From NCBI RefSeq assembly GCF_004138165.1, contig NZ_RYFF01000046.1, forward strand, positions 1-39,451: a stretch of DNA of 39,451 nucleotides, in the 5' to 3' direction. This DNA comes from Candidatus Chloroploca sp. Khr17 (lineage in GTDB: Bacteria > Chloroflexota > Chloroflexia > Chloroflexales > Chloroflexaceae). Each line of letters begins with the position of its first letter. Position 1 is the first letter of the stretch. The notes beneath the pieces are model-generated. The model was not told the origin of the DNA. It was given only the letters and a program-made list of their open reading frames with translations, and did no database searches. A program made the position numbers and the translations under genes. This document shows positions 7,297-27,082 of the stretch, one piece after another.

Positions 7297-7309
7297 TGAT
7301 ACTCCTTTT

Positions 7310-10557: not shown

Positions 10558-10593
10558 CGGTTGATAATCCTGCACATTTGTTGCATTGGTAGA

Positions 10594-10779: not shown

Positions 10780-10861
10780 GTGGGCAGGAATACATGCGCA
10801 CGGCTTGGATAGGCAATCAGCATACGTAACGGCATAGTGAGGCCCGCAACGCTTGCGCCTG

Positions 10862-10870
10862 TGCTACAAT
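10862..10870 (+). promoter_or_regulatory. Candidate extended -10 promoter for the DUF433/DUF5615 pair
   Basis: TGCTACAAT is an extended -10 form (TGn followed by TACAAT) about 45 bases before the ATG at 10915. No convincing -35 hexamer was found at 16-18 bp upstream. Confidence 0.4.
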
Positions 10871-10914
10871 CATTTTGCAATCACGAGCATCGAGAATTGG
10901 GGAACGCCGAAACG

Positions 10915-11244
10915 ATGAGTACGTTAGCTACGCTTGAACAACTCCTTCAGCATCTGACCCGCGCCGAGAAGGCCCAGGTGCTGCAGTGGGTTGTGCGCGA
11001 TCTGGGCGACGCCTTCCCCGGCATCGAGAGCAACCCCGGCGTGAGTGGCGGCGAGCCCTGCATCGTGCGCACGCGCATCCCGGTCTGGGTGCTCGTCCAG
11101 GCGCGTCGGCTTGGCTCGAGCGAGATCGACCTGCTGCGGGCCTACCCAGCGCTGCGGGCCGAGGACCTTGCCAATGCCTGGGCCTACTACCGTTCGCACC
11201 CTGACGCGATCGAGGCCCAGATCGCCGAAAACGAGGCAGCGTAG
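10915..11244 (+). CDS. DUF433-family antitoxin
   Basis: The ATG at 10915 is preceded by GGGGAA about twelve bases upstream; an earlier in-frame start at 10837 would overlap the promoter. The 109-residue protein has a helical N-terminus and then the DUF433 core: NPGVSGGEPCIVRTRIPVWV, SSEIDLLRAYPALRAEDLAN, and AWAYYRSHPDAIE. DUF433 proteins are winged-helix DNA binders, usually the antitoxin partner of a DUF5615 PIN-like toxin, which is the next gene three bases downstream. They probably repress their own promoter. Confidence 0.88.
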   Translation: MSTLATLEQLLQHLTRAEKAQVLQWVVRDLGDAFPGIESNPGVSGGEPCIVRTRIPVWVLVQARRLGSSEIDLLRAYPALRAEDLANAWAYYRSHPDAIEAQIAENEAA

Positions 11245-11247
11245 GCA

Positions 11248-11586
11248 ATGGCACAGCTCTACGCGAACGAGAACTTCCCCCTCCCCGTCGTCGCAGAGTT
11301 GCGGCGGCTCGGCTACGACCTGCTGACCAGCCAGGAGGCCGGAAATGCTGGGCGAGCCGTCCCCGATGAGGAGGTATTGGCCTTTGCGGTGGCTGAAGGC
11401 CGTGCCCTGCTGACGATCAACCGCAAGCATTTCATTAGGCTCCATCGTGCGACGCCGGCCCACGCTGGTATCATCGTCTGCACCTACGACCCGGACTTTG
11501 TTGGCCAGGCGGCCCGCATCGCTGCCACCCTGGCCGAGCAGTCGGCGCTCGACGGCCAGTTGCTGAGGGTCAATCGGCCTGCGTAA
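11248..11586 (+). CDS. DUF5615 PIN-like toxin
   Basis: The ATG lies three bases after the antitoxin stop, typical of a coupled pair. The 112-residue protein shows the DUF5615 pattern: an N-terminal acidic strand (LYANENFPLPVVAELRRLGY), a middle DEEVLAFAVAEGRALLT, and a C-terminal HAGIIVCTYD. The usual first DEN reads NEN, and the LLTxDxDF motif reads LLTINRKHF, so one metal ligand may be altered. PIN-like toxins cleave RNA. Its 3' end overlaps the convergent methyltransferase gene by 17 bp. Confidence 0.85.
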   Translation: MAQLYANENFPLPVVAELRRLGYDLLTSQEAGNAGRAVPDEEVLAFAVAEGRALLTINRKHFIRLHRATPAHAGIIVCTYDPDFVGQAARIAATLAEQSALDGQLLRVNRPA

Positions 11587-14332
11587 CCCCCACATACCTT
11601 GTCCCCCGCTTCTCGCCCTCCACCCGCGCCAACCCCTCGTCCACTAGGCGCCTGAGCAGCGCCCGTGCCGTGGCTACGTCAACCTCCAGCGACCCCTGCA
11701 CCTCGCCACTGCTCAGGCTGGCCCGCTCGGCGAGCAGCGCCTTCACGCGCTCGTAGCGCTCGGCCTCGTCAGCGCGGTACCCCTGCCGTACCTCCGCCGC
11801 CTTGCGCATAGGTCGCGGCGACACGCGCTCGGCTGCCGCCGCAAAGTCAATGACCTGCTGCGCCGGCGGCGACTCTTCCCCGAGATCCAGGGCCAACTGC
11901 GGCTCGGCGTAGAGCGGCGTTGGTTCCTCCACGCTGGCCTTGCGCCCGCGCCGCCCGCCCTGCACCCCTGACCCCTGACCCCTGACCCCTGACCCCTGAT
12001 CCTCCGCCCCTGACCCCTGACCCCTGACCCCTGACCCCTCCGGCAGCGGCAACTCGATCACCGGCTCCGGCAGATTCTCATTGAGCGGGATGTCCCAGTA
12101 GGGGTCGTGCTGCTTTGTGAACGCCTCCAGGCCCAGCGCCTTCAGCTCGTCGAAGGCCGCCAGGCAGCGCTCCGGCGCCTGCGGGTAGCTTTTGTGGCTA
12201 AAGGTTGAGAGCACGTGGGCGTACTGCTCGCGGCTCAGTCCGTAGGCCTCGGCGACCACCGCGTCAATCGCCGCCCGCACCGCCCAGCGCGCGTCGTCAT
12301 CCTTGAGCACGGGCCAGTCGAAGGGTGCCCGCTCTTCGCGCCACGCCTCGCCCACCTGCTCGCGCCACAGCGCCGCGTACCCGGCGTGGTTGCAGGTGAG
12401 GCGCAGGGCTGAGTGGGCGAGGAAGCGAGCAGGTGTCAGGTGTCGGGTTTCAGGTGTCAGGAGGGCGCGGGGCACCGGCAGGCGGTTGGCGATGAACAAG
12501 TTGACGTTTGCCGAAACCATCTGACGGGCCACAAAATCGTAACTGAATGAGCAACAAATAGATAGCAAAAGTAGGGAATATGCGGTTGAATGATTTGACG
12601 ATTCTTGATCAACAAATGTACTATCACCAGTTAGCACGCCTGCAGGTAGCAGAGCCGTTACAAACGTCCGCTCATTGGTTGAGCTTGCCACTTTTCGGAG
12701 TGCCAGTCTCCAAAAAACAACAGACTGCAACCAAGTGGCTCGGCCAATCTTTTGAGTGTGCAATAAATACTGGGGTCTTGCCTCCCACATGTCGGTGTAC
12801 TGATGAAAGGTCTTGCCCTCGTGCAGCACCAGGTAGCCCTGTTCGCGCAGCGCAGCCGCAACCTCAGGGTCACGGGGATCTACGCCGTTGGGAAGCACCT
12901 GGCTGGTGGGGGTGAAGCGCCAGGCGTCATCGGTCATGTGTAGCTCACGACCCAACCGGATGCCAAGCTGCTCACAGACTTGTCCAAAGGGTACGCCGTT
13001 AGCAAAGCAGATCCGGGCCACTTCTGCATCAGCAGGCGAGCGTAGCTCCAAGAGGCTCAGATACTCGCCACCGGTGCGGCGTACAAAATCGAGGCTGTAG
13101 CGCAGCGGCGCTTGACGCTGCTGCTCAAAGAGCCAGGCATCGTCGTGAAGATAGAAGGCGCACGGGAATTCAGTCGTTGGCCCCTGTCGGGCCGCAACGA
13201 CCGGGGCAAACTTGAAGCGTGAGTCAATCTCAAACAGCTTGTTGCGGTTTTCAAAGGAGTAGCAGCAGCGTGTCGCCATCTGCTCAAAGTAGAGGCGACG
13301 AATGCCGGTCGCACCCTCATTGGCGTGGAAGGCCGAAGGGACGACGACGCCAGTCAGTCCAGTTGGCCCCAGCACCTGGGCGTTGCGCTCCATGAAGGCA
13401 CGGAAGGCGTCTTGCTTGCCAATCGTTTTCTCGCCGTCGATTTCGACCACCTGATAGGTGTACAGCCGATCCAGCACACGTTCTACGCCACGAAACTCCT
13501 CAATGTACTCAGCATGCGCTGCCGCAGCCTGTGGGTTGCTCATAATCCGCCGCTCGATGGCCTCACGCTCACGTTTGGTTGGCGCATCAAGCACCGTGAA
13601 TTCATAGGCGGCAAAGAACTCTTTATCCGCAGGCAACATGCGATCCCACGGCGGATTCCCCACCACCACATCAAAGCCGTGGCGCGGCAGTTCAGGTGTT
13701 AGGGATCGGGTGTCAGGTGTCAGTCCAGGTGTTAGGGGTCGGGTGTCAGGTGTCAGCTCCGCCCCCGGCTCGTCCGCCCCTGAAACCTGAAACCTCACAC
13801 CTGAAACCTGAGCATAGAAGACTTCCGGGAAGGCCAGGTCGTAGGGGAAAGCAGGGGTCAGGTTCCAGGTGTCAGGGGTCAGGATGAGCGCAAGGGCATC
13901 CTCATAGCTCTTGATTGCCTCCGGCAACTCGCGTAGCCCCAGGCCCCGCGCAAGCATCCTTCGCAGCGTAGGGGTCAGGTTCCAGGTGTCAGGTGTCAGT
14001 CCTGCATCGTCCTTACCTGACACCTGCGTAGGGGTCAGGTTCCAGGGGTCAGGTGTCAGTCCTGCATCGTCCTCACCTGAAACCTGAAACCTTACACCTG
14101 ACACCTGCGTAGGGGTCAGGTTCCAGGGGTCAGGTGTCAGTCCTGCATCGTCCTCACCTGACACCTGCGTAGGGGTCAGGTTCCAGGTGTCAGGGGTCAG
14201 CCCTGCATCGTCCTCACCTGACACCTGACACCTCACACCTGACACCTCACACCTGACACCTGCTCTGACACCTGACACCTCACACCTGACACCTGCTCTG
14301 ACACCTGACACCTGACACCTGACACCTGACAC
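11570..14332 (-). CDS. Eco57I-like N6-adenine DNA methyltransferase, C-terminal segment (NPPW motif, target recognition, winged helix)
   Basis: This is the third frame of one broken gene. The first ~220 residues are mostly translated heptamer repeats interleaved with real sequence ([32 protein letters not shown]). Then come motif [16 protein letters not shown] near base 13660, the LDRLYTYQV and [11 protein letters not shown] strands, a target-recognition region with [15 protein letters not shown], and the LPVP landmark seen in Eco57I/BREX-type enzymes. The C-terminus has a winged-helix-like tail ([20 protein letters not shown]). Motif I lies in another frame (14233-15312), so this product alone cannot bind AdoMet. 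Adding one 7-bp unit in the array at 14220-14350 would join them. A class 1 DISARM methylase (DrmMI) role is likely if the gene is restored. Confidence 0.8.
11964..12039. repeat. Heptamer array near the 3' end of the methyltransferase
   Basis: About ten units of CCTGACC, split by TCCTCCG. Read on the coding strand it gives [10 protein letters not shown] peptides with no stop. It sits in a linker between the catalytic region and the winged-helix tail. Confidence 0.9.
12429..12461. repeat. Short heptamer insert in the methyltransferase
   Basis: Units CAGGTGT, CAGGTGT, CGGGTTT, CAGGTGT, CAGG on the plus strand. In frame it reads [10 protein letters not shown] just after the LPVPR landmark. The would-be TGA is CGA (Arg). 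Confidence 0.85.
13694..13811. repeat. Heptamer insert just before the NPPW motif
   Basis: Opposed arrays encode [10 protein letters not shown] and [20 protein letters not shown] in frame, between FPEVFYAQ and the strand carrying NPPW. Confidence 0.88.
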
Positions 14333-14350
14333 CTGACACCTGACACCTGG
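13855..14350. repeat. Large composite heptamer array splitting the methyltransferase
   Basis: Four higher-order units each contain GTAGGGGTCAGGTTCCAGG, then CAGTCCTGCATCGTC or a near-identical variant. They are followed by a long run of nearly pure TGACACC/TCACACC units (14216-14350), including about seven perfect TGACACC copies at the right end. The two flanking methyltransferase frames overlap from 14233 to 14332. Gain of one heptamer or loss of two would restore a continuous frame. Confidence 0.92.
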
Positions 14351-15312
14351 CGCGCCAGCGCCACATACGCGTCGTCGTCACAGCCGCCGCCCTTGCCCGT
14401 GCCGAGCATCACGCCGCCGGCCCAGGCAGCGGCGAGCAGGCGGAAGGGGGCCAGGGCGGCGTCGAGGCGGGTCTTGGCGGCACGCTTGCGCTCGATGTCG
14501 GCCACGTCGATGCCGACGCTCTCTTCGAGGGCGGCGACGTGGCTCAGCGCGGCGGCAAGGCTCTGCTGGAGCCGGGCCTGCAAGCCCTGGTTGAAGATGT
14601 CGTCAAGTGGCTGTTGGCTGCCAGGGTAGCGGGCCAGGTGCTCGGCGAAGGGCCCGGTGAGCGAGTCGCCCAGCACCAGGCGGTGGTCGAGGAAGGTCAA
14701 CGGCAGGCCCTCGGCGTGGGACTCGATCCAGATCGCGACGCGGGCCAGGGCCACCGCGAGAGGGTTCTTATCGACGCCGTAGAGGCAGTGGACGGCGGCG
14801 AGGCGTCGGCAGAGCGCACGAGCCTTCTGCTCGGAGAGGCCGGGCTGGTCGCCCTCGCGGGCGCGGCTGGGCAGGTAGGCCACCAGGGCATTGTCAGGGT
14901 CAGGCAGCGCCTCAACGCGCTGGCGTAACTCTTCGGCACGGGCGGCGGGGCGCACCGCCGCAGCGGGATCGCGCACCTTGAGCTTCGCAGCCTGCTCTTC
15001 AGCCACGCTCGCCAGTTCATCACAGCGGCGGCACGCCTCATAGAGCCGGTCGCCCAGGAAGCGACAGGCCTCGACCAAAAAATGCCCGCTGCCCATCGCG
15101 GGGTCGAGCACACGCAGGGCCAAGATGCGACCGGGCTGTGGATCATCTTCAGGGCTACGCTCATCACACTGCGGGCCGACCGTCTCTTGCACCAGGAAGC
15201 GCACGAAGGAGCGCGGGGTATAGTAGGAGCCGCTGGACTTGCGCCCGAGGCCCACGCGCAGGAAGAAGCGGCCAGGCGGGATGGCTTCGATCCATTCCAC
15301 GTTTGTAGGTTT
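14233..15312 (-). CDS. Eco57I-like methyltransferase, middle segment (AdoMet-binding motif I)
   Basis: This is the second frame of the broken gene; homology runs from [20 protein letters not shown] near 15310 to [11 protein letters not shown] near 14350. It contains the [14 protein letters not shown] landmark, motif I ([17 protein letters not shown], bases about 15085-15125) that binds S-adenosylmethionine, then [20 protein letters not shown] and LGDSLTG. The frame is open upstream to 15960, but that stretch is antisense to, or a shadow of, the inserted four-helix-bundle gene. It has no start codon of its own with a ribosome site. Product without the N- and C-terminal parts is unlikely to be active. 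Confidence 0.75.
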
Positions 15313-15434
15313 CAGATCAGGTGTCCGGTTTCTGGTGTCAGGTGTCAGGCCGGAGTCGTCGGTATCAGAGCCATCTCCACTGATCTCCGAACTGTGCCCA
15401 CTGACACCTGAAACCTGAGACCTGAAACCTGACG
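15308..15434. repeat. Heptamer array on the 3' side of the inserted four-helix-bundle gene
   Basis: Opposed units (TTTCAGATCAGGTGTCCGG on the left, CCTGAAACCTGAGACCTG on the right) with a short unique core. It abuts the stop of the gene at 15435. Confidence 0.88.
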
Positions 15435-15803
15435 TCAGCTCGTCTTCGTCCTCAGACTCTTTATCAGCCCATTCAGCATCTTGCCAACCTCCGACGTTTG
15501 TGCCAGTAGCGGAGCCAACTCCCGATCCTCCGTGTAGCCCAGCCGACCCGCGATCAGCAGGTGCGTCTCCAGCTCCATGAGCGAGCCGTTCGCGATCGAG
15601 AGGTGATGGAGATATTCCTTGATTGCTTCCCTCCCCTGCCCCTCCGCAATGTTCGCCGGCACTGAGACCGCTGCCCTCCGAAGCTGGCTGCTCAACCCGT
15701 ACGTCTCGCTCTTGGGGAACCCCTCTGTCAGCCTGTAACACCCGACTACCAGATCCATCGCCTTCTGCCACACCTTCAGATCCCGATAACTGCTGACGCT
15801 CAT
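15435..15803 (-). CDS. Four-helix-bundle protein of the 23S rRNA intervening-sequence (S23/IVP) family
   Basis: The ATG at 15803 has GGGAG upstream; an earlier in-frame start at 15821 is less well placed. The 122 residues match the IVP family throughout: [50 protein letters not shown], and [18 protein letters not shown]. These proteins are encoded in spirochaete and other 23S rRNA intervening sequences and are scattered through many genomes; they form oligomeric four-helix bundles and no enzymatic activity is established. Here the gene, with heptamer arrays on both sides, lies inside the methyltransferase gene in the same direction. It therefore probably came in as an insertion. Confidence 0.92.
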
Positions 15804-15826
15804 TGGTGCTCTCCCTAACACTAGGT

Positions 15827-15912
15827 GTGAGGTGTGAGGTGTCAGGTGTCAGGGCCGAACCCCGAACCTGGACATCTGCCCCCTGAAACCTGAAACCTGA
15901 TACCTGACACCT
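15827..15912. repeat. Heptamer array on the 5' side of the inserted four-helix-bundle gene
   Basis: GTGAGGTGTGAGGTGTCAGG units at the left and CCTGAAACCTGAAACCTGAT units at the right. It gives the N-terminal methyltransferase frame its stop at 15849. Confidence 0.88.
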
Positions 15913-17354
15913 TGCGCAATCGGAACAACCACCTCGAGCTTCTGACGGCGCAAGCGACACATCGGCTCGGCGGCAATCCCAGGCTCCAGCTCCAGCAGGG
16001 CCTCGTAGACCCGCCCCAGGTCTTCGACATCGAGTGCCGCATAGGAGACACGTTCACGGGCGGTGCCGCCCTTACCACGCGGCGTCCAGAGCAGCCGGTC
16101 GAGCAGCAGGGCCACGGCGCGCTCGCCCCAACGCAGCCCGGCGAGCGTCGGCGTCGCGGCGGGATCAAAGAGGCCGCCGGCCAGCGGCTTCACGGTAAGC
16201 TCTTGGCTCTCAACGCCCTCGGCGAAGAGGCGGAAGAGCTGGCGCAGGCCATCTTCAAGCATGCGCCCCGTCTCGGCACCCTCGTCAAGCACCGCACGCA
16301 CAATCGGTGCCAACGCCGTTCCGGGGGCATAGGTGCCGCGCCAGATCGCCGAGTCGGCGAAGCTAAAGCGGCGGGCCGGGTCATCGCTTGCGGCTAGCTT
16401 GAGGATGACCAGCAGCCGGTAGACGATCACCAGCCCCTCGCGCCAGAGGGTTTCAGGTGTCAGGTGCCTGGTGTCAGGTGTCAGTTCAGGGTTTAGGTGT
16501 CTGGTGTCTGGTGTCAGTTCGTCATCTGTGCCCTGTTCTGAAACCTGACCTCTGACTCCTGAAACCTGCGCTCCGGCCCCCTGAAACCTGACCCCTGAAA
16601 CCTGACCCCTATTCTCCGGATGATCAAGGATCGCCTGAATAAAGCCCTCAATCGCCTCACGGGCCTGGCGGCGCAGGTCGTTGGTAACACGAGTCTGCTG
16701 GAGGCGGGCCTGCTCGATCAGCTCAGGGAGCTTGCGGAGGCCGGCGGGCGAGGCCAGGGCGAGCAGCAGGCGATAGGAGTCGGGGACGATGCGGCGCTTG
16801 CGCCACTGCGTGTGGATCGGGATGATCACCTGCGAATCGGTGCGGGCGGGGTCAGAGATGATCAAGCGCAACTCGACGCCATTGGTCAGCAGGCCCATGC
16901 GCTCGCGCTCGGCGAGCAGCACCCGTTGGGCAACACGTAGCGGGCTATAGCGCGCAGCGGCCCCGCGGCGCCCAGGCGCATCAAGATCGGCCTCAAGCTC
17001 GGTGGCCCAGACACGCAGCCGCGAGCCATCCGCAGCGACAAGTAAGCGCCCGCCGTCCTCATCCTCCAAACTCGTGCGCACCTTACCGCCATCCGCCGGC
17101 TCAACGTAGCCAAGCCGCGCAACGAGCGGCAGCAAGACATGGTTAAAGACCCGCTCGGAGCCACCGCGCACAACTAATTCGCGCAGCTTGCGCTCATAGC
17201 GCTCCCAGGACTCCTGCAACTCCCGGCCCTCCGTGCCGGAGGCCTTGGACAACAGGCCCGCCTTGGTGAGCGCCTGCTCCAACTCCAGGCGCACGAAAGG
17301 CTCCGGCAGGGCCGGGCCGGTGAAGATGCAAGCTGGTAAGAGGTCGAGGGGCAT
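15849..17354 (-). CDS. Eco57I-like methyltransferase, N-terminal segment
   Basis: The ATG at 17354 follows AGTAGGAA by nine bases and lies 13 bp after the stop of the nuclease gene, so the two are probably coupled. The ~480-residue segment starts [20 protein letters not shown] and includes [20 protein letters not shown], an N-terminal region with an [16 protein letters not shown] strand, and the helical block [20 protein letters not shown]. That block directly precedes the [20 protein letters not shown] segment in intact enzymes of this kind. Homology ends at VVVPIAQG (near 15910), then heptamer-encoded residues and a stop. One in-frame repeat insert lies at 16448-16612. It cannot methylate alone. 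Confidence 0.78.
16448..16612. repeat. Heptamer insert in the N-terminal methyltransferase segment
   Basis: Opposed arrays give [20 protein letters not shown] and [20 protein letters not shown] in frame. Both Arg codons (AGA, AGG) stand where a pure repeat would have TGA. Confidence 0.9.
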
Positions 17355-17367
17355 GGATCTGTTCCTA

Positions 17368-19071
17368 CTACTTGTTCCTGTAGCGCTTCCACTCAGCCTC
17401 GGAGGCATTGAAGTCGAGGTAACGCTCGGAGAAGGCGTTGAGCCAGGTGCGCGTTACCGCATCAATGTCCAGCGCCAGCCAGTCGGCAATCAGCGTGTCA
17501 AGGGGAATGGCGCGGGGCGGCGGGGTGTGCTCGGCGAGCGTTTGGCAATACTCGCTAAGGGCTGCGGCCATTTTTGGATCATCAGGAGCATAGAGCACGA
17601 TCAGCTCGCCGATCCCATAATCCGGATCGCTCGCGCTAAGGGCCAGCGCAAGCATGTGGTTGCGCCAGAGCTGCTGGTAATTGGCGCCCAGGAGCTTATC
17701 GTAAGTATCAGGCCGCCACCAGCGGTCGGCATGATCAAACCAGTAACGATAGCGAGCCTTTGTGCCTGCCCCCTTTTTCGCCGAGAACGGCTCGGAGTAC
17801 TTCGTCTCAATTCCGACAAACCTGCGCTCCTGGCCCGATCGGTACCTAATCATGGCGTCGAAGGCAGTGTTGTCTTTCAACACCTCGTGTAGATTGGAAA
17901 CCTCCAGGGCAATCTCGATCACCTCGTCAACCGGATAGTCAGGTATTAGCGAGGAGACCAGCTTTCGTGCAAGGTCAGGATTGTCACGCAGCTGGCCGAA
18001 GAGATTGAAGCACATTGGCTGGCTGGAGAGCATATTGCCGTAGAGACGGTTTTTTCCAGCCGCGCCTGGCTTCGGAGGAAATCGCTCCCTGGCGACCTGC
18101 GCAATCGCTGGCGTCAGGAAATTTCTCCCCTCCCACGCATCGCTCTCGCTGAGATAGTTTCCGTGACCTGGCGTAGGAGCACAGTCGGCACGCAGTACAT
18201 GGTGGCGGTACCAGCTCTGGTGGAAGCGCTTGCGGGCGACCCATTCATCGTCGCCGGCGACGGGCTTGCCGTAGACAGCCTGAGGGTCTTCCTGATCACG
18301 CCACCAGAGCCCGATGTGCAGATGATTGCCCAGTGCCGCCACATCGTTGCGATGAAGGCGCAGATCGACGATGCGGTCATCATTGGGGCTGTATGGGCGG
18401 GCCTTATGAAGGGTTCCCAGGAGGGGACCAAGCGAGTCGCCAGTCGGCTTCCAGAGGTTGGACCAATTACGCGTGGGTGCGGCTCCCCACACCAGTTGGA
18501 GCGCGAATGGCCCCTGAGCCTTATGGTCGGCTTTGGCTTGTGACGCGATTCGTGCCTGGAGTTCCTTTTTCCACTCGGGCTGCTCAGAGCCCGGCCCCAT
18601 CGCTACCGTCACATGCTGCCATCCCGCATTGGGCGCATCGGTGCATGCACGGGCACGACCGATGCGAATGCTGGCTCGTGGCCGCTCATCGTACGGCACT
18701 GTTGGGGGCGCATCAACAGCGACATACTTCCTCGCCCTCGCGAGTAAAAAGCGCTGGTGGCCCAGCCGGTTAATCAGTGGGTAGAGGTAATTCTCCAGGT
18801 CGTATTCCTTGTGCAGCCGCTCGCGGGCGCGTACATCGATAACCATCTCCAGGTATAGGTCCGTGTGATCGCCAAGATATGGCCCAACCTGCGTCGCAAC
18901 CGCATCCAGGTACGCCTGAAGTTCTTGCTGGGCGCGGCTAGTCTTTGCATCCCAGCTAGCTAGGCGCGGCTGCACATCGGGCAGCTCGCAGAGTAGCTCA
19001 CCCGGCTCGTAGAGCGTCCATGCGGCTGCGGCAGGTGAGGCAGGCACCAAAGGCGTGGTTGGTTCAGACAT
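17368..19071 (-). CDS. PGN_0703-like PD-(D/E)XK protein with a possible RusA-like N-terminal domain
   Basis: The ATG at 19071 follows AAAGGAG by nine bases; the in-frame ATG at 19158 has no such site. The protein is 567 residues. The C-terminal half has the layout of PGN_0703-type putative endonucleases: MLSSQPMCFNLFG at 347-359, an acidic helix (VDEVIEIALEVS), FDAMIRY with D405, and VGIETKYSEPF with E422 and K424 as the D...ExK triad. The middle (GPFALQLVW at 187-195, then PNDDRIVDLRL at 229-239) recalls RusA-type Holliday-junction resolvases, but this is weak. It lies between the DrmD-like helicase and the methyltransferase, so it may be the nuclease of the system. It has no heptamer insert, unlike its neighbours. 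Confidence 0.65.
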   Translation of the reverse strand: MSEPTTPLVPASPAAAAWTLYEPGELLCELPDVQPRLASWDAKTSRAQQELQAYLDAVATQVGPYLGDHTDLYLEMVIDVRARERLHKEYDLENYLYPLINRLGHQRFLLARARKYVAVDAPPTVPYDERPRASIRIGRARACTDAPNAGWQHVTVAMGPGSEQPEWKKELQARIASQAKADHKAQGPFALQLVWGAAPTRNWSNLWKPTGDSLGPLLGTLHKARPYSPNDDRIVDLRLHRNDVAALGNHLHIGLWWRDQEDPQAVYGKPVAGDDEWVARKRFHQSWYRHHVLRADCAPTPGHGNYLSESDAWEGRNFLTPAIAQVARERFPPKPGAAGKNRLYGNMLSSQPMCFNLFGQLRDNPDLARKLVSSLIPDYPVDEVIEIALEVSNLHEVLKDNTAFDAMIRYRSGQERRFVGIETKYSEPFSAKKGAGTKARYRYWFDHADRWWRPDTYDKLLGANYQQLWRNHMLALALSASDPDYGIGELIVLYAPDDPKMAAALSEYCQTLAEHTPPPRAIPLDTLIADWLALDIDAVTRTWLNAFSERYLDFNASEAEWKRYRNK

Positions 19072-19177
19072 AGAGCGATGCTCCTTTGCAATCCGCGTCA
19101 GCAAGACTCGTGCGCCAATAGGCAATGATGTGGGCAGGGTTGTGCATCCGGCATCCATCGTTATGTGAGGCTGGTTA

Positions 19178-22100
19178 TTACGGCATGCTTGGAGGCAGCA
19201 ACATCAGCACGCCAAGCGGCAGCACTTCGGGCGGGCGCAGCGCCAGGCGGGCGTCTAGGTCGGCACAGCGCTGCTGGTAGATGCGCAGGGCGTGTTCGGC
19301 GTCGCCACGCAGACGTGGCGGAGCTGTGCGGTCATTGTGGAAGGCCGCTAGACGCTCAACCGGATCGGCTAGCGTTTGCCATGCACGCGCCGGCTGTGCC
19401 GCTGGCGCTGTGTCGGCGGCGAAGAGATCCATCTGGAGCGCGGGCACAGCCCCTTGCGGCGCGATGCGCTCAGCAAGCTGGCTCAGCCAGTCGTCGAGCC
19501 GCCCGCGCTCTGCCTCAAGGCTACGGCGGCGCTCGGCGCTGAAGGCAGATGCCGTGGCGCCGTGACAAAACTCACGCGTGATCAGTGCCTGCGCCTGCGT
19601 CAGCGCGTCGGCATACCAGGCAGCAAAGTATTGATCGTACACGCCGGTGGTACGCACGGGCCTGGCCTCTTCCACAAGCGGCAGCCAGTCCGACGGATTC
19701 AGCAGCACCTGGGCAGGTATCAGGGGTTGGGTGTCAGGTATCAGGTCAAGTCTGCCGTCATCGTCATCTTGACCCCTGAACTCTGAACCCTGGGTAGGTG
19801 TCAGGGGTTGGGTGTCAGGTGTCAGGTCAAGGGTGCCATCATCGTCATCTTGCCCCCTGAACTCTGACCCCTGAACTCTGACCCCTGAAACCTGAAACCT
19901 GAAACCTGACCCCTGAACCCTAACCCCTAGCACCTGCTCCAGTTCGCGGCCCGCCTTGCTCTCGATGCGGCCCAGGAAGGTGAAGAGCAGCGTCGGCACG
20001 GGCACGGCGGCAACGGCGACACTACACCGGAGATCCTGGCCGCTGTCGGCGGCTTTGCCAAACGAGAGATTGCGTACACGGTCGAGCGCCCGGCGCACCA
20101 AGGGGTGTGCGCGACCCAGGAAGCCCACTGGACGACCGAGCGCGTCGTGGGTCAGGTTGAGGTCAGTCGTGAGGCGGGTCACGCGGGTCTCGGCGTCATA
20201 GCCAGGCAGGTCGCTCAGGCCGTGGGCCCAAGCAGCGGGCAGCAGCGCCTCCTGAACGCGAGGGTCAGCGCCAGAGCGCACGTCGCCGCCGTCAATCCGG
20301 ATCGCATCGCAGACAAACCCCGACAGGTCGGTAATACTGGCGCTGTGGCCGCGCGTGCGCGCGGCCACAGCGCGCTCCATGCTCTGGGTATCGGCGGCAA
20401 GCCCGGCGTCACCTAACCAGACGTGGGAGCGGGCCGCCTGCTCGAAGCTGCGCAAACTGCGGTCGATCTCATCCAGCAATTCGCGATCTAAGGTTTCAGG
20501 TTTCAGGTGCCAGGTTTCAGGCGTTAGTGCTGCGTCGTTGGGTTGCTCAGCCGCATCCGTACTCGGCGGCGCCGTGTTGGCGTGCGCGAAGATTTCAGGT
20601 TTCAGGTGCCAGGTTTCAGGCGTTAGTGCTGCATCGTTGGGTTGCTCAGCCGCATCCGCACTCGGCGGCGCCGTGTTGGCGTGCGCGAAGGTTTCAGGTT
20701 TCAGGTGCCAGGTTTCAAGCGTTAGCGCCGCGTCGTTGGGTTGCTCAGCCGCATCTGCGCTGGGCGGCACCGTGTTGGCGTGCGCGAAGGTTTCAGGTTT
20801 CAGGTGCCAGGTTTCAGGCGTTAGCGCCGCGTCGTTGGGTTGCTCAGCCGCATCTGCGCTGGGCGGCACCGTATTGGCGTGCGCGAAGGTTTCAGGTTTC
20901 AGGTGCCAGGTTTCAGGCGTTAGCGCCACGCCGTTGGGTTGCTCAGCCGCATCTGCGCTGGGCGGCACCGCGTTGGCGTGCGCGAAGGTTTCAGGTTTCA
21001 GGTGCCAGGTTTCAGGCGTTAGCGCCGCGTCGTTGGGTTGCTCAGCCGCATCTGCGCTGGGCGGCACCGTATTGGCGTGCGCGAAGGTTTCAGGTTTCAG
21101 GTGCCAGGTTTCAGGCGTTAGCGCCACGTCGTTGGGTTGCTCAGCCGCATCTGCGCTGGGCGGCACCGCGTTGACTTGCTCATCGGCAGCTTGCCACGGA
21201 TCGTTGTTAGAAATCGGCGCATCTTCACGCAGAAACTCCAGCGCAAGCAGTGATGCCTCGGCAAACCCTGACCCCTGACCCCTGACCCCTGAAACCTTTC
21301 CCAGGGTGTTGGGCACGAACGTCAGCCGGGTGCGCTGCCGCTCGTACTTCGCGATGAGGCGCAGCAGGATGCGCTCCTCGAAGGTGCCCCGCAGGTAGAG
21401 ATAGCGCACGACCGGGTCATGCGTCTGGCCAAAGCGATCGATGCGCCCATTGCGCTGTTCAAGCCGATTAGGGTTAAACGGCAGCTCCAGGTGAATGAGG
21501 TGGTGGCAACGGTAGTGCAGGTTCAGGCCCTCGGCGGCCGCATCGGTACTGACCAGCACGAACCCATCGGCGTTTCGGAAGCGATCGGTGGTCGCGCTGC
21601 GTTGTGCATCATCATGCTCACCGCTCATGGTCAGCACCGGCCCCAGCCCGGCGCACTGAAGCGCCTCAACAGCGGCGCGCTGGCTGTCAATGTACTCGGT
21701 ATAGATGAGCACATTGGCCTGTGGCTCCTCGGCGCGGATAGCCTGGAGCGTGGCAACAAGCTGGTCGAGCTTGGGATCCTGGTTGAGCGCCGCCTCGGCC
21801 AGATCGGCGAGCGTGCCCAACTGATCGACCACCTCGGCCTCACGGCGCTGGCGGGGATCGTCGGCGCGAATCTCCCGCTGGACATCGATGAGCAGGCGCA
21901 CGAGATCCTCGGCCTGGAGCTGATGCTGAAGCAACTCCTCCTCGATGCTCAACGCGCCAAAGCGCTCGAGGCGCCGCTGGATGTCGCGCAGCGCCTTCCG
22001 CCGCTGCTGACGACTCTCTTGACGCTCCGCAATCCCACGCACGATCTCCTGACGTCGGTCGCCAATCGCCATGAGGGTTTCACGGCATGCGGCCACGGTC

Positions 22101-23239
22101 GAGACACTGCGCTTTAGCAAGGCAAAGAGCGAGAGCACATCGCTGTAGGTTTTGGTGCGGAAGGCGCGGCGCAACTGCGGAGCGATCAGGTCAAGCAGGG
22201 CACGCTGGAGGGCGATAAAGGCCGGGTGACGATCTGGTTCAGCGGTGACCGGGAGCGGCAGCACCACACGCTCGCGGAAGCGCGCGACCCCCGTCGTGGG
22301 ATCAACGATATGGCGCTTGAGCCGACGCACGACATGGGCACGGTAACGGTCGCCGCGCAGATCACCGGCATGATCCACAAGCGACGGGTCAAGCAGAGCG
22401 CAGAGCGAGGCGAACGAGCGATCATTGCCATCGTGGGGCGTCGCGGTGAGCAAAAGCAAGGCATCACAGCGCCGGGCAAGCACATCGGCGAGCCGACGAC
22501 GCTGCGAGTCTTCGCGGTCACCGCCACTGACATCCATGCAATGGTGGGCCTCGTCAATCACGATCACATCATAGCTGGTACGATCAAGCAGATCGACAAT
22601 ATGATCCTGCTTCAAAAAGTCAATTGAGGCCAGGCCCAGGGGCAGGTGGTCAAAAGGATTAGCCCCGCTCTCGGTACTGCGGCGCACCTCATCGAGAGCG
22701 GCGCGGTCAAGCGTACGCATACGCAAACCAAAGCGTTCCGCGAGCTCAGTGCGCCACTGATCGAGCAATGGCCCGGCGGGGGTGACGACAAGGATGCGGT
22801 GGGCCAGGCGGCGAGCGATCAACTCGGTCAGGATGAGGCCAGCCTGAATGGTCTTGCCAAGACCAACCGCATCGGCGAGCAGCAGACGCACGCGACTCAT
22901 CCGCAAGGCACGCACCACCGGCACCAACTGGTAGGGTTCGAGCTGCAGGCGGCCAGGCTGCACGGCGAGCAGAGCATCAGGGCCAAGCGCCTGCTCCAGC
23001 AGGAATGCCTGGTGGTAGACGCGCCAGTGGAGGAGCGGGGCAGCGCGTGCGGGGCGCAGATCGCGCACGATTGGCTGAATGGATTCGAAGGGAGCAAGCA
23101 GATCGAGCTCGCGCCCACGGAGGCCGCCGTCGATGCAGCGCAGGCGGTAGAGCGTCTGCTGTCCAAGGCGGTCAGCGAAGACCACCTCCCAGCGCAGCCC
23201 GCGGGCTTGCACCTCCGTGCCAGGGAGCAGGGTTGTCAT
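19178..23239 (-). CDS. drmD: SNF2-family helicase, DrmD-like, expanded by in-frame repeats
   Basis: The ATG at 23239 lies downstream of AGG at fair spacing. The 1353 residues start MTTLLPGTEVQARGLRWEVV, a DrmD/RapA-type beta domain. Helicase motifs: I in LLADAVGLGKTIQAG, II in VIDEAHHCMD, III in LLLTATPHDG, V in STDAAAEGLNLH, and VI in NRLEQRNGRIDRFGQ. Three repeat blocks keep the frame: a short one near residues 648-657, seven 33-residue units at about 686-916, and two 20-25-residue units near 1115-1175. Without them the length would be about 1050, usual for DrmD. DrmD is an ATPase of class 1 DISARM, which restricts phage DNA together with a methylase. I use the symbol by similarity only. 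It is the first gene of the island's main minus-strand set, 106 bp upstream of the nuclease gene. Confidence 0.82.
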   Translation of the reverse strand: MTTLLPGTEVQARGLRWEVVFADRLGQQTLYRLRCIDGGLRGRELDLLAPFESIQPIVRDLRPARAAPLLHWRVYHQAFLLEQALGPDALLAVQPGRLQLEPYQLVPVVRALRMSRVRLLLADAVGLGKTIQAGLILTELIARRLAHRILVVTPAGPLLDQWRTELAERFGLRMRTLDRAALDEVRRSTESGANPFDHLPLGLASIDFLKQDHIVDLLDRTSYDVIVIDEAHHCMDVSGGDREDSQRRRLADVLARRCDALLLLTATPHDGNDRSFASLCALLDPSLVDHAGDLRGDRYRAHVVRRLKRHIVDPTTGVARFRERVVLPLPVTAEPDRHPAFIALQRALLDLIAPQLRRAFRTKTYSDVLSLFALLKRSVSTVAACRETLMAIGDRRQEIVRGIAERQESRQQRRKALRDIQRRLERFGALSIEEELLQHQLQAEDLVRLLIDVQREIRADDPRQRREAEVVDQLGTLADLAEAALNQDPKLDQLVATLQAIRAEEPQANVLIYTEYIDSQRAAVEALQCAGLGPVLTMSGEHDDAQRSATTDRFRNADGFVLVSTDAAAEGLNLHYRCHHLIHLELPFNPNRLEQRNGRIDRFGQTHDPVVRYLYLRGTFEERILLRLIAKYERQRTRLTFVPNTLGKVSGVRGQGSGFAEASLLALEFLREDAPISNNDPWQAADEQVNAVPPSADAAEQPNDVALTPETWHLKPETFAHANTVPPSADAAEQPNDAALTPETWHLKPETFAHANAVPPSADAAEQPNGVALTPETWHLKPETFAHANTVPPSADAAEQPNDAALTPETWHLKPETFAHANTVPPSADAAEQPNDAALTLETWHLKPETFAHANTAPPSADAAEQPNDAALTPETWHLKPEIFAHANTAPPSTDAAEQPNDAALTPETWHLKPETLDRELLDEIDRSLRSFEQAARSHVWLGDAGLAADTQSMERAVAARTRGHSASITDLSGFVCDAIRIDGGDVRSGADPRVQEALLPAAWAHGLSDLPGYDAETRVTRLTTDLNLTHDALGRPVGFLGRAHPLVRRALDRVRNLSFGKAADSGQDLRCSVAVAAVPVPTLLFTFLGRIESKAGRELEQVLGVRVQGSGFRFQVSGVRVQGSEFRGQDDDDGTLDLTPDTQPLTPTQGSEFRGQDDDDGRLDLIPDTQPLIPAQVLLNPSDWLPLVEEARPVRTTGVYDQYFAAWYADALTQAQALITREFCHGATASAFSAERRRSLEAERGRLDDWLSQLAERIAPQGAVPALQMDLFAADTAPAAQPARAWQTLADPVERLAAFHNDRTAPPRLRGDAEHALRIYQQRCADLDARLALRPPEVLPLGVLMLLPPSMP
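19711..19931. repeat. Heptamer-based composite repeat near the 3' end of the SNF2 gene
   Basis: Two copies of a ~78-bp unit contain GGTATCAGGGGTTGGGTGTC or close variants plus GTCATCGTCATCTTG. They encode GSEFRGQDDDDG followed by LDLTPDTQPLTPTQ or LDLIPDTQPLIPAQ. A run of CCTGAAA/CCTGACC units follows. The Asp-rich DDDDG is an acidic island in the protein. Confidence 0.9.
20492..21180. repeat. Seven tandem 99-bp units inside the SNF2 helicase gene
   Basis: Each unit joins a heptamer block (TTTCAGGTTTCAGGTGCCAG) to unique sequence. The marker GTGCGCGAAG recurs at 20582, 20681, 20780, 20879, 20978 and 21077, exactly 99 bp apart. Each encodes 33 residues, with NTVPPSADAAEQPND and then LTPETWHLKPETFAHA. 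Copies differ by a few bases, several of them conservative, so they are not all recent. Confidence 0.95.
21265..21300. repeat. Short heptamer array in the SNF2 gene
   Basis: Units CCTGACC x3 then CCTGAAA. Translated in frame as [11 protein letters not shown], between FVPNTLGK and AEASLLALEFL. Confidence 0.88.
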
Positions 23240-23707: not shown

Positions 23708-24190
23708 ATGCAGACGCTGCTGTTTCTCTGTACTGGCAACTACTATCGGAGTCGCTTCGCTGCGTACCTGTTCAATGCGCGAGCGCAAGCGCTTGGTCTC
23801 CCCTGGACAGCCTTCTCGCGCGCCCTGGCCCTCGAACGAGGCAGCGGCAACGTTGGCCCCATCTCACCGCTCGCCCTGGACGGCCTAGCGCAACGTGGCG
23901 TGACAGTGACGCCCCCCATCCCCGTGCCCACCCAGGCCAGCGAGGAGGATTTCGCCAGGGCGCACCGCCGCATCGCGTTGTACGAGCGTGAGCATCAACC
24001 GCTGATCATTGAGCGCTTTCCCGCGTGGACAGAGCGAGTCACGTACTGGCATGTCGCCGACGTCGGCGATGTCACGCCGGAGGATGCCCTTGCGGCGATT
24101 GAGCGCGAGGTCACGGCCCTCCTGTCACGCGAGCATCTCCTGGTGAGCGGCGGCGTGTCGGCGTCGGAGTTCTTGGATGACCTGGGATAA
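23708..24190 (+). CDS. Low-molecular-weight protein tyrosine phosphatase family protein
   Basis: The ATG at 23708 follows GGAAAGG at about eight bases. The 160-residue protein begins with the P-loop signature C8-TGNYYR-S15 (Cx5RS; nucleophile Cys8, phosphate-binding Arg14), the form CxGNxxRS of LMW-PTPs. The general-acid DP motif near residue 118 reads ADVGDV, so the acid may be displaced. These enzymes remove phosphate from tyrosine or act as arsenate reductases; the substrate here is unknown. It stands alone, divergent from the DrmD-like operon. The ~100-bp spacer between the putative promoter region and the ATG holds TTTACACTAAC. Confidence 0.88.
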   Translation: MQTLLFLCTGNYYRSRFAAYLFNARAQALGLPWTAFSRALALERGSGNVGPISPLALDGLAQRGVTVTPPIPVPTQASEEDFARAHRRIALYEREHQPLIIERFPAWTERVTYWHVADVGDVTPEDALAAIEREVTALLSREHLLVSGGVSASEFLDDLG

Positions 24191-24239: not shown

Positions 24240-25140
24240 CAAAGAAGAGCAAACACCGCTTTTTTGACGCAAAGGCGCAAAGGCGTAAAGCACCGGGGGT
24301 GATCATGGCAATGGGCCTTGATGCTCGCCCTCGGCAGGGCGCAGCAGCGATGGGGACGACGATGTGATCGACAGACGCGCAGGGGCTGCTGCGCCCCTAC
24401 CGGGATGGTCGGTGCAGGAACCAAAGTGTATTGCCGCGCTCTTCCAATATCGGCAAGCTGCTGCGCCCCTACCGGGATGGTCGGTGCAGGAACCCGTCTC
24501 GGCATTGGGGGTTGAGGGCGAACAGAAATCGTGTTTGTTGCCGCAAAAGAACGCAAAGAACGCAAAAAATGGGGGTGCCATCGCCCGCAACATAGCCAAT
24601 GCGCACCACCGGTAGGGCGCAGCAGCGATGGGGGTGATCATGGCAATGGGCCTTGATCCTCGCCCACGGCAGGGCGCAGCCGCGAGGCACCTCGTGGTGA
24701 CTAACCGATGCGCAGGGGTTGCGGCGCCCCAACGGTGTGCGTTTGCCGCAAAAGAACGCAAAGAACGCAAAAAATGGGGGTGCCGTCGCCCCTCGCCCGC
24801 AACAGAGGACAGGGATAGGGCGGGCACCGGGGGTGATCATGGCAATGGGGCTGGATCCTCGCCCACGGCAGGGCGCAGCAGCGGGGGTGATCTTGGCAAT
24901 GGGCCTTGATCCTCACCCCCGGCAGGGCGCAGCAGCGATGGGGACGACGGGGTGATCAACGGACGCGCAGGGGCTGCTGCGCCCCTACTTTTTTGACGCA
25001 AAGGCGCAAAGGCGTAAAGCACCGGGGGTGATCTTGGCAATAGGGCCGATCCTCGCCCCCGGCAGGACACAGCAGCGCTGGGGGCGACGAGGTGATCAAC
25101 GAAGGTGCAGGGGCTGCTGCGCGGAACGGTTCCCCCGTGT
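24240..25140. repeat. Block of dispersed intergenic repeats, left of the AT-rich gene
   Basis: No gene is supported in this 900-bp stretch. Three interleaved elements recur: (a) GCAGGGGCTGCTGCGCCCCTAC, an imperfect palindrome, at about 24389, 24450 and 24967; (b) TGATCATGGCAATGGG followed by CTTGATCCTCGCC and GGCAGGGCGCAGC, at about 24300, 24636, 24833, 24890 and 25027; (c) GCAAAAGAACGCAAAGAACG, at about 24541 and 24742. CGCAAAGGCGCAAAGGCG also appears twice. All recur at 26400-26765, so these are members of a genomic repeat family. Confidence 0.85.
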
Positions 25141-25174: not shown

Positions 25175-25421
25175 GCTTGCCTGTTACCCCACATGTGAAC
25201 CCGTATACTACACAACGATCCCCTGGTGGCACGGTGGCCGGCGTGGTGCGGCGCGAGGCGGCGCTTGAACGATGGCCCCGTTGATCGCGTGGGGTGTTGG
25301 CGAGGCAGGGTGCGTTGGGACAACGCGCCGAGAGGAGGGCCGCACCAGCGGCGTCGGGTTGCACCGCCTGGTGAGATTGCATGGTGAGAAGGCTTTTAAA
25401 TGGAGGTTAAAAGACCGCTTT

Positions 25422-26174
25422 TTACAATCGATTTTGCTCTTGCACCAGGAGTCTTCCCAGGTTATGAAAGTGCTCATTTGTGATTCCATACGCGACAGGA
25501 TGTGGTGTGATGGCGAAAATCGTGTCATTATTATGAGTTATATGTACTTTATCTATACTTTTCCATTGAGTCGCTGATCCTGTAATTTGCTTCCACCAAA
25601 ACTTATACTCCTGATTGCTGCTATAGAAGACAACATAACGTGGCTTGTGGATTTCAATGAATCTTCGTATTGCTGCCGACCGTGGTTTTGACCATGTTTT
25701 TTTATACACATCACGGTTTATTAATTCGGGTATGCTTGAATGCTCATTATATATCCATTTTTTTATTGACTTAGAAGGAAGAGGAAGAAGTTCTAAAATG
25801 CAATTATTGCCGGTATGGACGCCAAGTTCTTCGCGCTGAAATTCTCTAACCATTTCCCTGTCAACGTTATGGCCTTCTGCGCTTAATAGAATACGGATTA
25901 ATTTACTCCAGGTTGGTTGTAATCGCGCCTTTGGTCCGATAAATTGCTGTATTCCAAACTGTTTATGTTGGGCGTTCAGGTCATCTATCGTTACTTTTCC
26001 TCGTACTTTCCAGTGATTCAGGCGGTGAACAACTTCTTTGATCGTTCCATCACTCCCGTCTTCCATCCCAATAAACCAGTACTTCCCATTAAAATTTCCG
26101 TATCCGAAAAAATTGTTCATGTACTCGTATAGGAGAGTGTCATCTAGTTCGAAATTAGTAGTCATACCAGCCAT
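25422..26174 (-). CDS. Uracil-DNA-glycosylase-like superfamily protein, AT-rich, probably acquired
   Basis: The frame starts at ATG 26174 (or 26165); neither has a clear ribosome site. The 250 residues show a UDG-like layout: GKYWFIGMEDGSDG near the N-terminus in the position of the GxDPG motif, NNCILELLPLPSK as a central strand, KPRYVVFYSSNQEYK, and ITPHPVAYGITNEHFH in the place of the HPS loop. The catalytic Asp/Asn cannot be assigned, so it may be an inactive or RNA-related member. Base composition is strikingly low: 17 of 60 bases at 25741-25800 are G or C, against a GC-rich surrounding. Repeat blocks flank both sides, which points to transfer. Confidence 0.6.
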   Translation of the reverse strand: MAGMTTNFELDDTLLYEYMNNFFGYGNFNGKYWFIGMEDGSDGTIKEVVHRLNHWKVRGKVTIDDLNAQHKQFGIQQFIGPKARLQPTWSKLIRILLSAEGHNVDREMVREFQREELGVHTGNNCILELLPLPSKSIKKWIYNEHSSIPELINRDVYKKTWSKPRSAAIRRFIEIHKPRYVVFYSSNQEYKFWWKQITGSATQWKSIDKVHITHNNDTIFAITPHPVAYGITNEHFHNLGRLLVQEQNRL

Positions 26175-26399
26175 TCTCGTTCGTCGTAGAGCATTATCAA
26201 CAACGGCCTATCGGTCGTCATCATAGCGACCGCTTGCTGAGGATTGATGCTCGTGGGGGCGGTCCAGGCGACTCCGCTCGTGGCGTCGGCCAGGGAGCAT
26301 ACATACCGTCTGAGCTAGGATACCACGAAGATGGAACCGATCCATTACCAGGCCTTAACTGGCTGTGACAAACCAGCAAGAAAGGCTGCGCAAAAGCCG

Positions 26400-26765
26400 A
26401 TCCGCGTAGCAACGCTTTACCCCCGACAGGGCGCAGCAGCGCTGGGGGCGACGGGGTGATCATGGCAATGGGGCTTGATCCTCGCCCACGGCAGGGCGCA
26501 GCAGCGAGGCACCCCGTGGTGACCAACCGACGCGCAGGGGCTGCGGCACTCCTCATGTGTTTGTTGCCGCAAAAGAACGCAAAGAACGCAAAAAAACGGG
26601 GGGCCGTCGCCAGCAACACAGCCGATGCTCACCCACGGCAGGGCGAAGCTGGGCACCGGGCGTGATCATGGCAATGGGGCTGGATCCTTACCCACGGCAG
26701 CAGGGCGCAGCAGCGAGACACCCCGTGGTGACCAACCGACGCGCAGGGGCGGCTGCGCCCCTACT
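26400..26765. repeat. Block of dispersed intergenic repeats, right of the AT-rich gene
   Basis: Same elements as at 24240-25140: TGATCATGGCAATGGGGCT at about 26457 and 26665, GCAAAAGAACGCAAAGAACG at about 26567, and ACCCCGTGGTGACCAACCGA twice. The right copy ends GGGCGGCTGCGCCCCTAC. No gene is supported between 26200 and 26765. Confidence 0.85.
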
Positions 26766-26833
26766 TGACTCTCAGCGGCGCAGCAACTACCATGGGCGCA
26801 CGAAGCAATGCCGTGCGGAGTGCAACGAACGCA

Positions 26834-27082
26834 ATGTCTGGCGACGAACTATCCCCTGCTGATTCCATCGACCCGCTCAAAGTCGGTGAGTTGATTTCGC
26901 TGACCGAGGCCATCGCCTATACTGGGTTGACCCGCAATTCTCTGAATGGCTATATTCGGCGTGGGCGCTTGAAAGCAAAAAAACTCGGATCAGTCTGGGT
27001 CACGACCTACGCTGCGCTTGATGAATACCTCGCCTCGCGGGACATGGAGAGCATTCCCAAAAAGTATCGTCAGCGCTCTTGA
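26834..27082 (+). CDS. Excisionase-type (HTH_17/MerR-like) DNA-binding protein
   Basis: I choose the ATG at 26834; in-frame starts at 26765 and 26792 would run into the repeat block. The 82 residues contain a MerR-like winged helix: LISLTEAIAYTGLTRNSLNG, then YIRRGRLKAKKLGSVWVTTY and LDEYLAS. Such small proteins are excisionases of mobile elements or toxin-antitoxin and phase regulators. No integrase is in the window. The start is uncertain because the only GGAG lies 14 bases upstream. Confidence 0.7.
   Translation: MSGDELSPADSIDPLKVGELISLTEAIAYTGLTRNSLNGYIRRGRLKAKKLGSVWVTTYAALDEYLASRDMESIPKKYRQRS

Follow-up and report, generated by a model that had tools for sequence, protein, structure and literature searches.

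The window analysed here is a whole contig of 39,451 bases (G000:C158, where G000 is the window's own genome). Between two blocks of repeats it carries a complete reading frame for a 250-aa protein on the minus strand, with an ATG start and no internal stops (Table 1). The G+C content of this gene is 0.397, and its third codon positions have a value of 0.382, against 0.594-0.805 in six other genes of the window. Windows of 753 bases that do not overlap the gene average 0.648 (sd 0.040) and never fall below 0.543, so the gene is the single sharp GC outlier of the contig. The first-pass annotation had described a sharp contrast in composition with the surroundings, and this is confirmed: the gene has 39.7% G+C against a mean of 64.8% in the rest of the window, with 17 of 60 bases being G or C at 25741-25800. 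A scan for promoters and terminators gave 3 (1.9 expected) and 1 (1.4 expected), respectively, and an Rfam scan of 24000-27500 returned two sub-threshold microRNA matches that are read as chance.

Table 1. Coordinates of the AT-rich gene, its flanking repeats, the anchor genes and the adjacent defence operon
Feature	Position	Strand	Basis
Defence operon left of the hotspot	1490..23239	-	PADLOC matches
DruE-like helicase	1490-6682	-	Defence operon
UvrD-like helicase	7486-9750	-	Defence operon
Type IIG-like methyltransferase	11570-14332	-	Defence operon
DrmMI-like methyltransferase	15849-17408	-	Defence operon
DrmD-like helicase	19178-23239	-	Defence operon
160-aa gene, left hotspot anchor	23708..24190	+	PF01451 E 0.0042, below cut-off; 89% in G001
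Left genus-specific dispersed repeat block (candidate)	24259..25128		Repeat analysis, relatives search
Left bounding copy of repeat end	24377..24400		Crossover point relative to empty site in G001
Further dispersed host repeats, left edge of foreign segment	25123..25402		Matches elsewhere in G000; G001, G002, G005, G009
Foreign segment, unmatched in seven relatives	25403..26311		~0.9 kb; nucleotide search, query positions 281-1189
Gene for predicted UDG-fold protein	25422..26174	minus	ORF list, family alignment, model, fold matches
Dispersed host repeat, right edge of foreign segment	26312..26411		Relatives search
Right genus-specific dispersed repeat block (candidate)	26419..26764		Repeat analysis, relatives search
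Right bounding copy of repeat end	26741..26764		Comparison with G001
HTH_17 DNA-binding gene, right hotspot anchor	26765..27082	+	PF12728 above cut-off

The operon to the left of this region mixes Druantia-like (DruE) and DISARM-like (DrmMI, DrmD) components with a UvrD-like helicase and a type IIG-like methyltransferase. Two further reading frames there, 6910-7296 and 17371-19158, have no PADLOC matches. The DrmD-like frame contains several tandem copies, by eye, of in-frame repeat units of approximately 30-40 aa, and the frame of the type IIG-like methyltransferase begins with a repeat related to these units. To the right of the gene, the frame at 27282-29282 includes four tandem copies of a GC-rich repeat of 105-111 bases (27636-28067). 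Farther along, 30520-33582 encodes a NACHT-type NTPase fused to a formylglycine-generating-enzyme-like domain. DNA matching part of this last frame is found beyond the same HTH gene in two same-genus genomes (G001 and G002).

The stretch that a nucleotide search left unmatched in seven relatives, with at most 40 candidates scored per genome, contains only the 250-aa gene with 137 bases upstream and 19 bases downstream. It is narrower than the gap between the two repeat blocks. The DNA common to the window and to G002 begins at 26312, and in G002 it borders a different AT-rich gene.

Dispersed repeats of the same kinds do occur on both flanks, as had been remarked earlier. Family D1 has six copies of 112 nt, five in 24289-25128 and one at 26446-26557, and families D2, D4, D6, D7 and D9 are likewise represented to the left and to the right of the gene. 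One copy (24877-24988) has at least 12 matches in the host genome, 8 of them at the glycosylase locus, and at least 18 and at least 17 matches in two genomes of the same genus. The same copy gave no match in three same-family genomes with 40 candidates scored per genome (G005 had 121). Judged by these matches, the flanking repeats look genus-specific and appear to belong to the host genus, and for this reason they are probably not the vehicle of the gene. The proposal that the repeat family carried the gene is not supported, since the repeats are present in same-genus genomes that lack it. The repeats were also rejected as a vehicle on the basis of 27 homologous loci, among which only L038 matches the repeat blocks, and weakly. 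The match in this locus covers 31 bases (3083-3113, 87%) just after the Nodularia family member.

The two 80-base edges of the foreign segment share no word of 7 or more bases in either direct or inverted orientation, and the target-site duplications suggested as a check were thus not recovered. Words shared by the edges are fewer than random pairs give, so there is no evidence of transposition. A cut-and-paste transposon was rejected as well, with no transposase recognised in the segment or in the two anchor genes. The cassette may have entered or left by recombination between copies of the repeat.

The genes that anchor this site can be followed in genomes of the same genus. The product of the left anchor is weakly like a low-molecular-weight phosphatase, below the Pfam cut-off. 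In G001, contig C10 (7,531 bases) consists of a TPR-like gene (by eye), a phosphatase-like gene whose product is 89% identical to that in the window, one repeat copy and the start of the HTH gene, after which the sequences diverge. The glycosylase-like gene is absent from the C10 site. Compared with C10, the window is longer by 2,364 bases (24401-26764), an excess flanked by two copies of the repeat end. C10 is also without the defence operon (1.5-23.2 kb in the window) between the TPR-like and phosphatase-like genes, with the left anchor of this comparison being less sure because TPR genes are repetitive. G001 has the HTH gene a second time, on contig C107, where it adjoins a full-length DrmD match. 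In G002, an AT-rich gene (0.39) and a partner lie ahead of the HTH gene; they are PADLOC candidates PDC-M30/M41, labels that we take to stand for TcmP-like and DUF5131-like proteins. Because of these arrangements on C10, on C107 and in G002, the host genus seems to exchange defence genes at the position next to the HTH gene. The G002 pair (L056, 4058-6055) lies at the same edge that bounds the glycosylase cassette. Beside the second HTH copy of G001 there is a CRISPR array (L055, approximately 5970-6600, by eye).

The outcome that the first-pass annotation had set against its own reading, an orthologue of equal composition in the corresponding place of a related genome, was looked for and not found. 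The gene is present in 0 of 60 relatives, of which 2 are from the genus, 34 from the family and 24 from the order. In a sample of the phylum, 5 of 400 genomes have a match, including the window's own. The other four are an intact gene (G242, 35% identity), two overlapping frames (G147), a fusion (G316) and a fragment (G314). Members of the family are distributed patchily over Cyanobacteria, Chloroflexota, Bacteroidota, candidate-phyla bacteria and others. In a phylogenetic tree, the protein nests with those of Laspinema and Chamaesiphon (Cyanobacteriota) with support of 99/98, and the Chloroflexota members are scattered over several places. A tree that holds six Chloroflexota rows together, apart from the remaining 19 rows, is rejected (p-AU 1.8e-48, with the divergent Chloroflexota row L042 left out of the six). 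Long branches, that of the window's protein included, limit finer statements about the tree. Acquisition of the gene by horizontal transfer from outside the genus is well supported; the early suspicion that it is foreign was borne out by its absence from the 60 relatives and by its grouping with cyanobacteria.

The composition of family members elsewhere is variable. In a comparison of 27 related loci that includes near-duplicates and two fragments, the open frame is at least 0.04 below its locus in 13 cases and at least 0.04 above it in 3, so a low GC content is common, though not universal, in the family. Where the GC content of the locus is at least 0.55, the gene is 0.06-0.13 lower in five of five cases. 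Some copies carry a frameshift or a truncation, have one diverged end or run into the end of a contig (L004 in G147, L029, L043, L044, and L011 in G314). Such broken copies are as expected for a dispensable gene that is gained and lost.

The 250-aa protein by itself has no meaningful match in Pfam, NCBIfam, PHROG or PADLOC, and no curated cut-off is reached. Sequence searches of the PDB also gave nothing meaningful, and there are no matches among 50,697 phage and 72,556 plasmid records. Single-protein scans of genome contigs and viral contigs found no relatives, and alignments were therefore needed to find the family. A three-member alignment searched against GTDB contigs yielded 26 loci among 88 pattern matches. 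One more locus (L018) comes from IMG/VR, where three of four viral scans gave the same single contig and the fourth gave none. The working alignment, A5, has 25 sequences with near-duplicates among them. It omits L029, whose C-terminus has diverged, the fragments L043 and L044, the damaged genes of G147 and G314, and the divergent L005 of G316, a family member with approximately 140 extra N-terminal residues.

Known glycosylase models barely register this family. The Pfam cut-off for PF03167 is not reached, as the protein has no match and one of the 25 members matches at E 0.023. A PF03167 search of the host genome did not return the gene. The best match to the UdgX model among the 25 members is weak and involves one member (E 0.098). 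Profile alignment by hhalign to family-4 UDGs, represented by 20 sequences from relatives, is weak (Prob 1.5%, E 0.034) and leaves the N-terminal motifs unaligned, with a sensible-looking stretch only in the C-terminal 'PK-VV...HP' region. Alignments to MUG (2 sequences) and UNG (3 sequences) are also weak.

A structure prediction is more informative. With the A5 alignment, AlphaFold2 produces a model with a pLDDT of 91.3 and a pTM of 0.90, where a single-sequence model is useless (pLDDT 33). In Foldseek searches with the model, the best PDB matches are family-4 UDG, TDG and MUG, with E values from 4e-4. The best 38 rows are all UDG-superfamily enzymes, UdgX and SMUG1 also among them, at TM-scores by model length of 0.31-0.44, and five of these matches reach E 0.001. 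VIA reports Z scores of up to 8.8 over 157-159 residues and all 50 rows listed are UDG-superfamily entries, a Z near 8 being possible from a common structural arrangement. Among viral models, a phage UDG-like protein comes nearest (E 8e-6). The order of elements in the model follows the UDG plan: a strand leads into the first motif, followed by helices, a strand into Glu128, a long helix, a strand, a helix, a hairpin, a strand into the His-Pro motif and a final helix. A UDG-superfamily α/β fold is well supported for the modelled protein. The original label 'UDG-like' is right by fold, as judged by the AlphaFold2 model, Foldseek and VIA, and by no family model. The modest TM-scores make the relation to known UDGs a distant one, and the family is apparently an undescribed branch of the fold. 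Among the open-licence full texts listed for UDG or glycosylase defence, none is recognisable as a description of it.

The family has four motifs, numbered here by the window's protein: G-M-E-D/E-G (36-40), Q-x-T-W (86-89), L-E-L-L-P-L-P (127-133) and H-P-x-A-x-G (225-230). Gly36, Met37 and Glu38 are found in 25 of 25 members. The position of Glu39 is Glu in 24 and Asp in one, which is the window's protein. In the second motif, Gln86 (23/25) and Thr88 (24/25) precede residue 89, which is Trp in 19 and Tyr in 6 sequences by A5 columns. Gln113, Gly118, Pro131-Leu132-Pro133, Tyr142, Tyr157 and Arg165 are invariant (25/25). Near the C-terminus are His225 (23/25) and Gly230 (24/25). By its sequence, the family has a putative active-site signature of its own and no model above cut-off in the libraries scanned.

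Structural comparison suggests what two of these residues may do. In the VIA rows for 1mug and 3uo7_A, residue 1 of MUG and residue 123 of TDG begin at model residue 21. If these alignments are ungapped, Glu38 is opposite MUG Asn18, presumably the catalytic Asn of that enzyme, and opposite TDG Asn140, a residue that is also named in Foldseek match titles. Other TDG rows start at 8/112, and Asn140 would then be opposite residue 36, not 38, if ungapped. The model is consistent with Glu38 in the catalytic slot, where MUG and TDG have Asn and UNG has Asp. The position of Glu128 is Glu in 24 of 25 members and Asp in one. From the order of strands, not from residue-level structural alignment, Glu128 would fall in the base-reading slot, where family 4 has Asn82, Brig1 has E147 and Brig3 has D127. 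These residue roles rest on topology and motif order, and sequence-profile alignment gave the placements no confirmation. Mutation N123D is reported to turn the uracil enzyme UNG of E. coli into a cytosine glycosylase (PMC3989344). Because of this effect and the acid at the putative base-reading slot, a cytosine-type substrate is predicted.

Comparison with characterised members of the superfamily reveals partial likenesses in each case. Family-4 UDGs bind an iron-sulphur cluster with four cysteines. The enzyme of this family from Sulfolobus tokodaii (PDB 4ZBX/4ZBY) is the best Foldseek match, with the same strand and helix order and a C-terminal HP motif. However, the new protein has one cysteine (Cys125) and hence no four-cysteine iron-sulphur site, has Glu where family 4 has Asn, and carries approximately 40 extra residues after the first motif, so that Glu38 and Trp89 are 51 residues apart compared with about 12 in family-4 relatives. 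MUG and TDG (PDB 1MUG, 3UO7) match the fold over 146-159 residues and place an Asn slot opposite Glu38 if ungapped, but they have Asn instead of Glu and are only 9-12% identical. UdgX has a KRRIH loop with a covalent His, and this motif is absent from the window's protein.

Two glycosylases of anti-phage systems provide the closest functional precedents. Brig1 is an α-glucosyl-5hmC DNA glycosylase (Hossain 2024; PMC11078745) and Brig3 a 5hmC DNA glycosylase (Mejia-Pitta 2026, preprint; PMC13160076), with E147 of Brig1 and D127 of Brig3 needed for defence. Brig2 acts on modified thymine (PMC13160076). Homologues of Brig1 are patchy across phyla and clustered with BREX/Pgl, toxin-antitoxin and restriction genes (PMC11078745). 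The new family shares with Brig1 the superfamily fold and a patchy spread over phyla, with some members in islands that hold restriction, BREX/Pgl and toxin-antitoxin genes, and Glu128 may correspond to the acid at the base-reading position of Brig1 (E147) and of Brig3 (D127). Its resemblance to Brig3 extends beyond the superfamily to the long insert that separates the catalytic motif from the stacking aromatic residue (N50 to W100 in Brig3, 50 residues; 51 here). In contrast, no conserved residue stands at the spacing expected for N145 and W122 of Brig1 (columns 126 and 90), and the residues listed in column 90, beside the stacking aromatic, include no aromatic one. The catalytic slot is N50 in Brig3 and, putatively, Glu38 in the new family, and the column that would match Brig3 E55 by its spacing is not conserved (column 43 is Asn in 12 and Glu in 5 of 25). 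As columns 90 and 43 are not conserved as such, the Brig1 and Brig3 pockets are not reproduced. Unlike in the Brig3 system, a look at the neighbours, rather than a sequence search, recognised no BapA-like partner beside the gene. The principle of base excision as a phage defence is already known from what the Brig1 and Brig3 papers report, and the 42 Brig1 homologues, which include some from Cyanobacteria, could contain members of the new family.

Several family members have defence genes nearby. L023 is flanked by BrxA (E 7e-54) and PglZ (E 8e-217), and L033 by an McrBC component (E 7e-31), an AAA_5 protein and a type IV enzyme (E 3e-85). In L034, a serine recombinase is followed by a type I methyltransferase (E 6e-161), and in L041 PDC-S06 is two genes away. 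In five of seven cyanobacterial loci (L019, L020, L027, L029 and L038), a PIN/VapC-like gene occurs by eye within three genes. Location in a defence island holds for the window, L023, L033 and L034, and not for all loci. The defence context that had been surmised for the gene is thus borne out by the Druantia/DISARM-like operon on its left and by the neighbours of L023, L033 and L034.

A control with housekeeping UDG genes from 20 paired genomes points in the same direction. At E 1e-15, 54 PADLOC models match near the new family and 26 near the control genes, among 103 and 109 genes, respectively (up to three per side, fewer at contig ends); these are counts of overlapping models, not genes, and are suggestive rather than statistical. 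Among the matches listed, those near the new family include PglZ, BrxA, type I methyltransferase, type IV enzyme and PDC-S06. The control models listed are helicases, DndA/SspA and methyltransferases, but defence names such as SspH, DUF499 and PDC-S03 occur there too, along with mad genes. The DndA/SspA matches are presumably IscS-like. Left out of the pairing were L032, from a genome without a PF03167 match, L036, the viral contig L018, the near-duplicates L020 and L039 and the fragments L043 and L044; L022 and L025 were both kept even though they have neighbours in common.

We favour the view that the gene is a mobile, horizontally acquired, single-gene anti-phage module that would encode a monofunctional UDG-superfamily glycosylase like Brig1 and Brig3, and we assign this reading a probability of roughly 0.6. 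It fits the foreign origin, the patchy spread, the hotspot, the BREX, Mcr and restriction-modification neighbours, the UDG fold and the putative base-reading acid. Action on modified phage bases, raised in the first-pass annotation, is plausible by analogy with the Brig1 and Brig3 precedents. We infer the residue roles, catalysis, substrate class and anti-phage effect of the protein as follows. It would bind incoming or replicating phage DNA and flip a base into a UDG-type pocket, where the aromatic residue 89 would stack on the flipped base. Glu128, at the place of an Asn in uracil glycosylases, would read the Watson-Crick edge, and a cytosine-type base, probably modified at C5, would be expected. 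Glu38 in the catalytic slot would activate a water molecule, and the glycosidic bond would be cut. Many abasic sites could then block replication and transcription of the phage.

A different, rather unlikely explanation is that the protein belongs to an undescribed UDG family of repair glycosylases, excises uracil or another endogenous lesion from DNA, and spreads by horizontal transfer. The fold would suit such an enzyme, and in some lineages the gene has a fixed place, by eye, as a repair gene might. For example, three Nostocales copies adjoin a pntB-like gene with no defence gene recognised beside them (by eye), and the same neighbours recur in two Laspinema genomes and, by eye, in two Chloroflexota genomes. 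The Chloroflexota copies L022, L025, L028 and L042 reside among metabolic genes, again with no defence gene recognised beside them by eye. However, the host genome has three other PF03167 genes, and 20 of the 21 hosts of the family have at least one, which already covers routine uracil repair. A repair function also sits poorly with the patchy spread and absence from all 60 relatives, with Glu at a putative base-reading position that is Asn in uracil enzymes, and with the location in a defence hotspot.

The gene might instead belong to a phage or integrative element and serve that element, for instance by removing modified bases that the host makes, by processing the element's DNA or by keeping out rival phages, a reading that we consider somewhat less probable than repair. 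It draws on the viral contig L018, where C5 methylase, type II enzyme, N4/N6 methylase and serine recombinase genes are neighbours. A serine recombinase is the next gene in L018, L034 and L040, which belong to one clade (Pfam; L032 and L036 are alike by eye), and L018 and L034 have an HTH_Tnp/terminase-like gene on the other side. Outside this recombinase-linked clade, however, no serine recombinase was recognised within three genes per side. No other gene lies within the foreign segment of the window, the phage and plasmid records have no match, and L018 is the single contig produced by the viral scans. It is improbable that the UDG-fold protein is non-catalytic or has a different chemistry, as a sensor of modified DNA or a UdgX-like covalent binder, an idea encouraged by the one weak UdgX-model match and by a Glu-Glu motif and extra helices that, to our knowledge, are unlike every known UDG motif, because the strict conservation of Glu38, Glu128 and His225 suggests an enzyme and no single partner gene recurs family-wide (by eye, only within the recombinase-linked branch).

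If the reading as a single-gene glycosylase module is true, base-excision phage defence would be broader than the available accounts of Brig1, Brig2 and Brig3 indicate. It would also point to phages with modified cytosine that infect Cyanobacteria, Chloroflexota, Bacteroidota and candidate-phyla hosts. More tentatively, and with odds somewhat short of even, this could be a separate, undescribed family in at least five phyla that has a double-acid pocket, with Glu38 for the catalytic Asn and Glu128 for the uracil-reading Asn, for modified cytosine beyond the Brig1 and Brig3 substrates, and that moves alone, as a cassette of one gene, into defence hotspots rich in repeats. The family offers concrete residues for mutation and a clear prediction of substrate class.

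There is one further instance of a UDG-like-looking protein near a member of this family. In L037 and L039, a second small protein of this kind is encoded at 11994-12533, 1.3 kb downstream of the family member; its L037 copy gave no Pfam match, and a GTFNPE... motif can be seen in it by eye.
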